A DNA stretch of 64,000 bases from contig NZ_CP040846.1 in assembly GCF_006274605.1 (NCBI RefSeq), forward strand, positions 1,433,041 to 1,497,040. Direction: 5' to 3'. The stretch's first letter is position 1. The number at the start of each line of letters is the position of its first letter. Shown in pieces: positions 6,688 through 9,885 of this stretch. The stretch is from Thermococcus indicus (GTDB lineage Archaea > Methanobacteriota_B > Thermococci > Thermococcales > Thermococcaceae). The notes beneath the pieces are model-generated. The model saw only the letters and a program-made list of their open reading frames with translations. It was not told the DNA's origin and ran no database searches. A program made the position numbers and the translations under genes.

Positions 6688-7320
6688 ATGAAGGAGGACT
6701 ACTTCACCCGGGGATTCATAGCCGAGATGAGGGAGCGGTATTTCAGGCCGAGGAAGTGGGAGAAGGTCAGGCCGTTCCGGAAGTCGGCGGTTCTGGCGAT
6801 AGACCTTCAGAGATACTTTCTCACGCCGGAGAGCAGGGCGTTCCTGCCTTCCGCGCCTCGATTCGTTCCGGGGCTGGTGGAGTTTTACAGGGAGGTGGAG
6901 AAGCTTGGCGTTCCGCTAATCTTCACCCGCCACTCCCACCAGGACGACATCATGACCCGCTGGTGGGGCGGAGACATGCCGAAGAACGACCCGCTAAACG
7001 AACTTCTTGAAGAGTTCAAGCCCTTTGCCGGAACAGTCATCGAGAAGAGAACCTACGACGCCTTCCACGGCACTAACCTTGAGGGAAAGCTCAGAAAGCT
7101 CGGCATCGAGACGGTAGTCATCACCGGCGTCATGACGCACCTCTGCTGTGAAACAACAGCCAGGGAGGCCTTCGTGCGGGGCTTCAACGTCGTCTTTCCG
7201 GTTGACGGGACGCTGACCCAGAACAGGTTTTTCCACGAGGCAACGCTTAGAAACCTCTCCCACGGCTTCGCGGTTACGCCAACGCTGGAGGAGGTGCTCG
7301 AATGGCTCTCGTCGGGATAA
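6688..7320 (+). CDS. Isochorismatase-family cysteine hydrolase
   Basis: 210 residues with the three catalytic positions of the family: Asp39 in AIDLQ, Lys120 in IEKRTYD and Cys153 in GVMTHLCC. Relatives include nicotinamidase, N-carbamoylsarcosine amidase and similar amide hydrolases; the substrate here is not evident. The ATG at 6688 is chosen because homology to the family begins just after it and a TATA-like TTTAAG lies about 25 bases upstream (6659-6664). Its last 19 bases overlap the flavoprotein gene, so the two are probably translated together. Confidence 0.9.
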   Translation: MKEDYFTRGFIAEMRERYFRPRKWEKVRPFRKSAVLAIDLQRYFLTPESRAFLPSAPRFVPGLVEFYREVEKLGVPLIFTRHSHQDDIMTRWWGGDMPKNDPLNELLEEFKPFAGTVIEKRTYDAFHGTNLEGKLRKLGIETVVITGVMTHLCCETTAREAFVRGFNVVFPVDGTLTQNRFFHEATLRNLSHGFAVTPTLEEVLEWLSSG

Positions 7321-8126
7321 TCGGGGCCGGGATCGGAGGCATAGCGACGGCCGTCCAGCTGGCGCGCTACGGGATAGAGAGCGTAATCTTCGAGAAGGAT
7401 AGAATCGGGGGACTGATAAGGAACGCCTACTCCGTCGAGAACACGATGTTCTTCCCCGACGGAATCAAGGGTGAGAAAGTTGTTGAAATCCTCGAGGAGT
7501 ACGTGAGGAAGTACGACCTGAAAATCCTCTACGAGAAAGTCAGAGCCGTGAGAAAGACCGGCCAGTTCTTTGAAGTCCAAACGGATAAAGGAACTTACCG
7601 CTTCAAGTACCTGGTCGTTGCGACGGGGACGAGGCCGAGGAGGCTTCCCTTCGAGGGGATAATCTACCACGTCGCTGAAGTCCCGAGGCGGCACTATGGG
7701 CGAGTTCTCATCATTGGCGGCGGCGATGTGGCCTTTGACTACGCCTTAACAATGAGCGAGACCAGCGACGAAGTGATAATCCTCATGAGGAGCGAGCCGA
7801 AGGCTCTGCCCCACCTCCAGGAACTCGTGAAGAAACGCTCAAACATCAGGACGCTGATGGGACAGGTTCGGGAAATACAGCCCACAAACGGAAAGGGAAA
7901 GCTTTTAGCTAAAACCAGCGCTGGCGACTTTGAGGTTGAGATGGTGCTCGGTGCCATCGGCAGGGTGCCGAACATCGAACTGGTTGAGGGCATCGAGGAC
8001 GATAACCTTTTCCTCGTTGGGGACGTTAAGAACGGAATCTACCGCCAGACGGCCCTGGCGATAGCGGACGGAATCAAAACCGCGATGGTGATATGGAGGA
8101 GGGAGAGGTATGGAGATACTGAGTGA
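7302..8126 (+). CDS. Thioredoxin-reductase-like FAD/NAD(P) oxidoreductase without the redox CxxC
   Basis: 274 residues with two dinucleotide-binding motifs, GAGIGG (8-13) for FAD and IIGGGDVA (137-144) for NAD(P)H, and the typical VGDV near the end (DDNLFLVGDVKNG). In thioredoxin reductase a CxxC precedes the second motif; here that place reads VPRRHYG, and I see no cysteine anywhere in the protein. It therefore cannot reduce disulfides in the usual way and more likely passes electrons to another protein. It overlaps the upstream hydrolase by 19 bases and the downstream radical SAM gene by 17, which suggests it supplies electrons to that enzyme (inference). Confidence 0.88.
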   Translation: MALVGIIGAGIGGIATAVQLARYGIESVIFEKDRIGGLIRNAYSVENTMFFPDGIKGEKVVEILEEYVRKYDLKILYEKVRAVRKTGQFFEVQTDKGTYRFKYLVVATGTRPRRLPFEGIIYHVAEVPRRHYGRVLIIGGGDVAFDYALTMSETSDEVIILMRSEPKALPHLQELVKKRSNIRTLMGQVREIQPTNGKGKLLAKTSAGDFEVEMVLGAIGRVPNIELVEGIEDDNLFLVGDVKNGIYRQTALAIADGIKTAMVIWRRERYGDTE

Positions 8127-9057
8127 GGTTGGCGACCCCAACGTTGCGGTGGTTTACATCGGGAGAACCTTCAAGGGGAACATCGTCGAGTTCGTCGAAT
8201 CGATTCCGACCTACAATCCGGCCGAGAAGTGGGTGCTCATCGTCTCATCGCTCAACGGCTGTCCGGTCGGCTGCAAGATGTGCGACGCCGGCTTCTTCTA
8301 CAAGGGAAGGCTGAGCCTTGATGAACTGATGGAGCAGATAGAGTATCCAATCCAGAGGCGCTGGAACGGGAAGCCGAAAACCAGGAAGTTCAAGGTGCAG
8401 TTCGCGAGGATGGGCGAGCCGAGCTTCAACATGGCCGTCATAGAGGCAATGCGGCTTTTGGGTGAGCGCTACGAGAACTTCCATCCCTCGCTCTCGACGA
8501 TAGCCCCGATAGGAACCAACAAGTTCTTTGAGAGGCTCCTCGAACTCAAGAAGGAGATGTTCCCGACCAACTTCCAGCTCCAGTTCTCGATACACTCCAC
8601 GAATCCGGAGCAGAGGGACGAGATAATCCCGGTCAGGAAGTGGGACTTCGAGAAAATCGCGGAGTACGGCAAAGCCTTCTACGACGAGGGCGGCAAGAAG
8701 ATTACGCTAAACTTCGCCCTCGCGAGGGAGAATGAGGCCGATGCAAACGTTATAGCCGAGTACTTCCCGAAGGAGTACTTCCTCATCAAGATAACGCCCC
8801 TCAACCCGACGGTGAGCGCTCTGAAGAACAGGCTAACCAACGACGTTGACCTCGAAACTGGCCTTCCGATGAAGCACAAGAAGTTCGTGGACGACCTGAG
8901 GAGGCTCGGCTACGACGTCATTATCTCCGTCGGCGACACGAGGGAGAACCTCATCGGCTCGAACTGCGGCCAGTACATCCTCAGGTTCCTGAAAGAGAGG
9001 CCGGAGCTTAGGGAGGCCTACACCTTCGCGAGGGGCTTTGAGTTTAGGGTGAGCTGA
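8110..9057 (+). CDS. RlmN/Cfr-like radical SAM protein lacking one catalytic Cys
   Basis: 315 residues. The cluster motif CPVGCKMC (Cys51, Cys55, Cys58) has the RlmN/Cfr-type CxxxCxxC spacing. Further RlmN-like blocks follow: ARMGEPSFN, STIAP, LQFSIHS and, near the end, SNCGQY. Cys286 of that last block aligns with the methylated Cys355 of E. coli RlmN. The partner, Cys118 in the E. coli run LCVSSQVGC, is Ile44 here (LIVSSLNGC). The RlmN N-terminal accessory domain is also mostly missing. So the protein probably modifies RNA or another substrate by chemistry that differs from RlmN. It is translationally coupled to the flavoprotein gene upstream. Confidence 0.88.
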   Translation: MEILSEVGDPNVAVVYIGRTFKGNIVEFVESIPTYNPAEKWVLIVSSLNGCPVGCKMCDAGFFYKGRLSLDELMEQIEYPIQRRWNGKPKTRKFKVQFARMGEPSFNMAVIEAMRLLGERYENFHPSLSTIAPIGTNKFFERLLELKKEMFPTNFQLQFSIHSTNPEQRDEIIPVRKWDFEKIAEYGKAFYDEGGKKITLNFALARENEADANVIAEYFPKEYFLIKITPLNPTVSALKNRLTNDVDLETGLPMKHKKFVDDLRRLGYDVIISVGDTRENLIGSNCGQYILRFLKERPELREAYTFARGFEFRVS

Positions 9058-9101: not shown

Positions 9102-9515
9102 ATGAGCCTCATGGCACAGCTCCGCGGGGACTTCAGGAAGTTCAAAGACTCCTGCATGGGGATCCTTCTCTACGGCTCCCACGTCAAGGGGGAAGCCACA
9201 AGCAGAAGCGACGTTGACGTCTGCCTCGTGAAGCCAAAGCCCGGTGTATACCGGGAAGTCCTCAAAAAGCTCGGGGGAAAATACGATGTTAAGGTCTTTG
9301 AGGAGCTCCCACTTTACGTTCAGATTGAGGTAATCAAAAATCACAAGGTTATATACGGCGACGAGCTTGAGCTATCGGAGTATTTCTACCACTTCCGAAA
9401 GCTGTGGAGGGACATGGAGCACAGGATAAAGGAGAACCAGTTCGAGAGCGTAAGGGAGAAGATAAGACTCAGGAGGCGTGCCCATGAGAAGGCGGAGGTA
9501 CTTAGAGAAGCTTGA
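9102..9515 (+). CDS. mntA: MntA-type nucleotidyltransferase antitoxin
   Basis: 137 residues. The minimal nucleotidyltransferase motif GS-x10-DxD is exact: Gly25-Ser26, Asp37, Asp39 (GSHVKGEATSRSDVD). In characterised HepT/MntA pairs this enzyme adds AMP to a tyrosine of the HepT toxin and so silences it. A TATA-like CTTATCTTAT occurs about 35 bases upstream and GGTGGT precedes the ATG. The coding region overlaps hepT by 32 bases, as expected for a toxin-antitoxin operon. Confidence 0.9.
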   Translation: MSLMAQLRGDFRKFKDSCMGILLYGSHVKGEATSRSDVDVCLVKPKPGVYREVLKKLGGKYDVKVFEELPLYVQIEVIKNHKVIYGDELELSEYFYHFRKLWRDMEHRIKENQFESVREKIRLRRRAHEKAEVLREA

Positions 9516-9885
9516 GCGGTTTGAAGAGGAATACGAGTTCATAAAAAACCATGAGATGAAGGACGAAGTTACCCAGAGAGCCCTCCTTTACTCTCTCCAG
9601 CTCTGCGTGGACATCGCAATGGATGTCGTTGCAATGCTCGTTAAGGACTTGGGAATGACAGTCGAAGACGATTACACAAACATCGAACGGCTCAGGAAGG
9701 CGAAGGTTATCCCCAAAGATGAAGCCGAACTTTTGAGAGCCTACAACGGACTTAGAAATGCCATTGTTCACAAGTACGACAGGCTCAACCTCGATACTGT
9801 GAAGGAGGGCCTCGATAGAATTGACGAGCTATACGAGATCGTTATAAAGCTCGTGGAAAAGTATGAAAAGCTGGAAGGTCAGTAA
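9484..9885 (+). CDS. hepT: HEPN-domain toxin HepT (DUF86)
   Basis: 133 residues, all-helical, with the HEPN ribonuclease motif R-x4-H-x-Y intact: Arg91, His96, Tyr98 in RNAIVHKY. HEPN toxins of this type cleave RNA, and the motif tyrosine is the AMPylation target of MntA. ATG 9484 is chosen over GTG 9478 because AGGAGG lies at 9471-9476, seven bases before it. The gene ends 7 bases inside the convergent amidohydrolase gene. Confidence 0.9.
   Translation: MRRRRYLEKLERFEEEYEFIKNHEMKDEVTQRALLYSLQLCVDIAMDVVAMLVKDLGMTVEDDYTNIERLRKAKVIPKDEAELLRAYNGLRNAIVHKYDRLNLDTVKEGLDRIDELYEIVIKLVEKYEKLEGQ

Follow-up and report, generated by a model that had tools for sequence, protein, structure and literature searches.

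In the window (the whole 64,000-nt stretch of Thermococcus indicus DNA that was analysed), an RlmN-like radical SAM enzyme without the adduct-resolving cysteine of RlmN (Cys118) is encoded together with a cysteine-free, thioredoxin reductase (TrxR)-like flavoprotein and an isochorismatase-family cysteine hydrolase, and the same triplet recurs in many bacterial and archaeal phyla, whose hosts are unrelated anaerobes. The loss of Cys118 is a fixed trait of a wide family and not a peculiarity of one odd gene. New chemistry appears likely. We consider the whole reading, namely a three-enzyme module with methyl-Cys radical chemistry, a target other than that of RlmN, a non-Cys ending and electrons supplied by the flavoprotein, to be evenly poised between right and wrong.

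Layout and recurrence of the three genes

The three genes follow one another with overlaps in the 2.23-Mb genome of this member of the Thermococcales (Table 1), and strong Shine-Dalgarno sequences were found for the flavoprotein gene and for the radical SAM gene. In relatives, the overlap between these two genes is typically 4, 14, 17 or 26 nt. The initial annotation of the window had placed both genes correctly and had paired their products. The pairing stands, because the two genes are adjacent in 93 of the 97 informative loci (those with enough upstream sequence), but the annotation left out the third gene, that of the hydrolase, as well as the breadth of the radical SAM family and the presence of true RlmN in most bacterial hosts. 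The hydrolase emerged from clustering of neighboring genes, as a gene of ~220 aa just upstream of the flavoprotein. Directly 3' of the module (window 9102-9885) lie genes for a nucleotidyltransferase-domain protein and a HepT-like protein, a probable toxin-antitoxin pair.

Table 1. Positions of the three genes, their overlaps and the key sites of the radical SAM enzyme in the window
Feature	Position	Strand	Details
Isochorismatase-family cysteine hydrolase, gene 1	6688..7320	+	210 aa; start MKEDYFT; triad Asp39/Lys120/Cys153
TrxR-like FAD/NAD(P)H flavoprotein, gene 2	7302..8126	+	274 aa; no Cys, no CxxC
RlmN-like radical SAM enzyme, gene 3	8110..9057	+	315 aa
Overlap, hydrolase end/flavoprotein start	7302..7320	+	19 nt
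Overlap, flavoprotein end/radical SAM start	8110..8126	+	17 nt
Glu27 codon, aligned with RlmN Glu105	8188..8190	+	invariant in family
Ile44 codon, Cys118 place	8239..8241	+	alignment with 10 RlmN
CX3CX2C cluster motif, Cys51/Cys55/Cys58	8260..8283	+	invariant in 103/103 relatives
Gly-Glu-Pro (102-104), RlmN-type SAM-binding motif	8413..8421	+	alignment
Cys286 codon in SNCGQY, mCys355 place	8965..8967	+	102/102 relatives reaching that far

All three genes are together in 77 of the 97 loci, and when a partner is not adjacent it is mostly encoded elsewhere in the same genome (the hydrolase in 13 of 15 cases, the flavoprotein clearly in three of four). The four loci without an adjacent flavoprotein gene are L045, L069, L072, and L091; the sole flavoprotein candidate in the genome of L045 (5e-45) resembles an ordinary TrxR, which counts against the module reading. 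Among 115 genomes that belong to one phylum and are thus not independent, which gives a chance figure computed from them formal value only, the complete triplet occurs in 23 and not one intact gene of it in the other 92. Within Thermococcaceae the distribution is patchy, with losses. Two of the 92 genomes (G046 and G049, from one genus) carry radical SAM remnants with frame breaks (L024-L027), and neither the flavoprotein nor the hydrolase gene was found in these two genomes. The recurrence across phyla is more telling than such co-occurrence inside one phylum. Neighbors conserved beyond the three genes were not observed, downstream genes varying among loci, and the module thus appears self-contained. 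No viral copy of it was found in viral_contigs.

The gene context differs in two genomes. In a Zixibacteria genome (L062, 1-4417), cobalamin adenosyltransferase-, TrxR-, and lipoyl synthase-like genes (assigned by eye) precede the flavoprotein and radical SAM genes, and a search of this genome for the hydrolase found none. In a Syntrophaceae genome (L224 and L230), the hydrolase and flavoprotein genes lie apart from the radical SAM gene, beside an adenine deaminase-like gene (also assigned by eye).

The radical SAM enzyme and its cysteines

The protein belongs to the radical SAM superfamily according to PF04055 (37.2 bits, cut-off 29.5) but falls outside RlmN as defined by TIGR00048 (54.1 bits versus an equivalog cut-off of 290), and it matches the Cfr models weakly (43-47 bits, far under their cut-offs). 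Its closest solved relative by sequence is the RlmN-like chain 6fz6 in the PDB (E 1.3e-12). A structure model, which the initial annotation had proposed to compare with RlmN and Cfr, was built with AlphaFold2 and searched with Foldseek: the model (pLDDT 93.9, alignment from 35 relatives) has the overall RlmN fold and again matches 6fz6 best (TM 0.68), and the model, the Foldseek matches and PF04055 together identify a partial TIM barrel with the CX3CX2C motif.

For residue-level comparison, 103 full or near-full relatives were aligned with 10 genuine RlmN sequences drawn from genomes in which family members occur. The window protein contains exactly four cysteines, at positions 51, 55, 58, and 286. 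The first three form the cluster motif, and Cys286 aligns with the Cys of the RlmN motif AACGQL; the Cys355 place is kept in every relative long enough to include it, as had been claimed at first for the window protein. The Cys118 column contains Cys in all 10 RlmN sequences and in none of the family members (Ile in 83, Leu in 8, Met in 7, Thr in 3, and Val in 2 of 103), which extends the earlier assignment of this place to Ile44. A different Cys taking up the Cys118 place would have spoken against that assignment; all four cysteines are otherwise accounted for and none is left to replace Cys118. Also borne out is the loss of the N-terminal RNA-binding domain: profile and alignment reveal no counterpart in the family of RlmN residues ~1-70 (the helical N-terminal domain), and the family begins after RlmN residue ~70. 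Other RlmN residues are replaced by family-specific invariant ones (Lys95, Gln97, Arg100, Gln156, Gln158, Lys197, Asn201, and Lys227), several of which should face the barrel, judging by their strand positions.

The residues that a class A mechanism would require, with a methylated Cys as the methylene carrier, are conserved. Across all family members, the predicted machinery for loading and activating the methyl-Cys is kept and the predicted adduct-resolving part is gone. According to a review of these enzymes (PMC9692996), RlmN cannot resolve its RNA-protein crosslink without Cys118, and a C118A mutant traps the adduct; therefore, the RlmN ending is not available to a family that has no Cys118. 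Sequence and published mutants thus lend good support to the initial statement that an RlmN-type ending is impossible here. An RlmN-like enzyme without its finishing residue very probably has both another target and another route to the end of its reaction.

Partner enzymes, proposed reaction and its alternatives

The hydrolase belongs to the isochorismatase superfamily, as indicated by its PF00857 score (132 bits, cut-off 27) and its catalytic triad, whose Asp, Lys, and Cys are invariant in the family alignment, and its ATG at 6688 agrees with the family start MKExYFT. The best PDB match is 3eef, which is named only as N-carbamoylsarcosine amidase-related. The flavoprotein scores 103 bits against TIGR01292 (cut-off 343), matches TrxR in a PDB sequence search and keeps the motifs GxGxxG, GGGDxAFD, and GDV...RQ for FAD and NAD(P)H. 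The initial description of it as a protein without CxxC is correct and can be widened, as the window copy is free of Cys and no Cys is conserved among 86 relatives. CxxC occurs in three of these, and in the one inspected (L058) it lies off the TrxR site; by the mark of a redox-active CxxC beside FAD, the window protein does not qualify as TrxR. Foldseek with the AlphaFold2 model (pLDDT 95.0) gives TM values of 0.85-0.86 to the flavin-reducing (FR) form of TrxR and of about 0.60 to the flavin-oxidising form, the forms being stated in the titles of two Lactococcus TrxR entries and assigned from general background for other TrxR structures. The modeled conformation suggests that NAD(P)H may reduce the FAD directly and that electrons exit by another path.

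For Cys118, the older disulfide model has been superseded by one in which this residue serves chiefly as a general base and fragmentation then yields a Cys355 radical; according to the same review, no one-electron source for re-reducing this radical in RlmN has yet been identified (PMC9692996). In the initial argument from CxxC, the absence of the motif holds, and the implied disulfide ending corresponds to the older view (PMC9692996). That argument is slightly weakened, since a TrxR-like disulfide relay is perhaps needless even in RlmN; the general-base view nevertheless makes a dedicated flavoprotein donor more interesting.

In the reading that we prefer, the radical SAM enzyme would methylate its own Cys286 with SAM, with Glu27 as the base, in keeping with the role of RlmN Glu105 in deprotonating the methyl-accepting Cys (PMC9692996). 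The 5'-deoxyadenosyl radical would then generate a Cys-S-CH2 radical, which would add to an sp2 carbon of the substrate. With the base or thiol of Cys118 absent, the thioether adduct would have to be resolved in another way, either by a non-Cys base or because the substrate can do without one. The flavoprotein may hand electrons from NAD(P)H to the radical SAM enzyme and thereby reduce its cluster, the Cys286 radical or both, and the hydrolase may open an amide-type bond before or after the radical SAM step. The substrate is presumably something other than the site that RlmN modifies in rRNA or tRNA; from the missing RNA-binding domain and the polar residues we infer a polar small molecule, possibly an acid freed by the hydrolase. 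No neighboring pathway that hints at it was observed among the loci examined, and riboswitches, which were searched for near the module at 12 loci as a clue to the substrate, gave no Rfam match at the gathering threshold. The most specific form of this proposal is a hitherto undescribed pathway of anaerobic bacteria and archaea from multiple phyla, in which a class-A-like enzyme that lacks a resolving Cys delivers a methyl or methylene unit to a small molecule, the cycle being closed by the Cys-free flavoprotein with electrons from NAD(P)H. It is tentative, and we place it somewhat short of even.

One alternative, which can be combined with the preferred reading, is that the flavoprotein acts on the substrate (for example, as a reductase of a ring double bond or of an exocyclic methylene) instead of serving as the donor of the radical SAM enzyme. 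Its FAD and NAD(P)H sites are kept, the lack of CxxC leaves the flavin free to react with a small molecule itself, and the module behaves like a pathway. Against this, the tight overlap of the flavoprotein and radical SAM genes in most phyla also fits a direct donor. We consider this alternative possible, if on the doubtful side.

It is unlikely that the enzyme is an archaeal m2A-type RNA methylase in which another residue has taken the Cys118 role, with the flavoprotein supplying electrons only and the hydrolase being incidental. The overall RlmN fold, the counterpart of Glu105 and the SAM motifs are kept, and a true RlmN is missing from Thermococcus and the other archaeal hosts. However, a true RlmN scoring over the family cut-off is already present in 12 of the 15 bacterial hosts, so the module protein is not their A2503/A37 methylase. 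The lack of the RNA-binding N-terminal domain and a distribution that is patchy within one genus, with loss, and locked to the hydrolase also argue against an RNA methylase.

Another alternative dispenses with methyl transfer, Cys286 being an H-atom donor or a covalent anchor in a reaction on a small molecule and the flavoprotein a reductant of the cluster. The substrate-facing residues are indeed unlike those of RlmN, and in spore photoproduct lyase, in the work as cited in PMC9692996, a Cys ends the radical reaction by H donation. This appears rather improbable, because Glu27 and the CGQ loop, whose RlmN counterparts are required for Cys methylation, are invariant or nearly so.

The thioether adduct might also be the end product, with the substrate joined to Cys286 of the enzyme itself (as self-modification, as a bound cofactor, or in suicide or tagging chemistry) and the methyl group never released. 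RlmN C118A stops at exactly such an adduct (PMC9692996), Cys118 is found in no family member, and sister phage enzymes appear to have their methyl-Cys on a free protein of ~40 aa (see below), which is potentially consumable. Nevertheless, there is no sign that one protein is spent per turnover, and the presence of two dedicated partners points to catalysis within a pathway, which makes this explanation distinctly improbable.

Two further ideas were rejected. A defence system was not indicated by PADLOC, which returned no match for the radical SAM enzyme or the hydrolase and weak unrelated ones for the flavoprotein; a link to selenium (an orphan SelD with an isochorismatase-like gene) was dropped because the study describing it mentions no radical SAM partner (PMC5029168).

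Phage relatives and known systems

In a maximum-likelihood tree with some long branches, the module family, the protein of phage Versailles and a group of split phage enzymes form one clade (100/95) against RlmN, Cfr, and three other phage proteins, with Cfr placed inside RlmN. Cys118 is absent from all checked members of this clade; its place is Gly in all 11 aligned split-phage cores. Among the other phage relatives (L138, L139, L140, and L156), Versailles (phrog_24834, unknown function) also lacks Cys118, and Arash and ANB28 keep it.

The split enzymes (L141 5833-6795, L142 5836-6758, L143-L151, and L157-L223) have a radical SAM core that stops short of the CGQ loop; the loop is encoded by an ORF of its own, ~40 aa long, in varying frames and at varying distances. 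The small protein ends in a conserved stretch of the AVAIATxxEIxxGAACGQLSII type, which includes the methyl-Cys motif GAACGQL. A script detected it close to the core at 59 of the 78 loci, counted on fetched stretches of which a few overlap; it is present in all eight whole phage records inspected, including six that the script had counted as negative, with two copies where there are two cores. No PHROGs family matches it. If it is a free-standing methyl carrier, such a protein would be new.

For RlmN and Cfr, the rule is that product release takes a second Cys; in the clade described here, which spans many phyla, this Cys is always missing and the two partner enzymes are nearly always there. 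If the most specific form of the proposal is true, the module would represent a new, non-thiol finish of an RlmN-type reaction. Solving it would show a further way for such radical chemistry to end and bring to light a small pathway common to very different anaerobes that profiles now place weakly with RlmN; it could also suggest the type of electron donor used in the reaction of RlmN. Experiments on any family member were not found in the literature searched, nor was a named account of the three-gene cassette, in a search that covered few subscription journals.

Compared with known systems, the module enzyme has the fold, CX3CX2C, Gly-Glu-Pro, Glu105, and methyl-Cys CGQ loop in common with RlmN, the class A radical SAM enzyme that synthesizes C2-methyladenosine at 23S rRNA A2503 and tRNA A37. 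It differs from RlmN in lacking Cys118 and the N-terminal RNA-binding domain, in its many family-specific substrate-side residues, in having fixed partners and in coexisting with RlmN in bacterial hosts. Cfr, the C8-methylase of 23S rRNA, belongs to the methyl-Cys mechanism class that is predicted for the module enzyme and matches weakly by profile, but it retains its resolving Cys105 (PMC9692996). The flavoprotein has FAD and NAD(P)H domains in common with low-Mr thioredoxin reductase (TrxB) but neither the redox CxxC nor any Cys in the window copy. The hydrolase shares the Asp-Lys-Cys triad with nicotinamidase, CSHase, RutB, and BiuH, all of the isochorismatase fold, and forms a subfamily of its own, marked by invariant Gln, His, and Trp residues and by its N-terminal motif.
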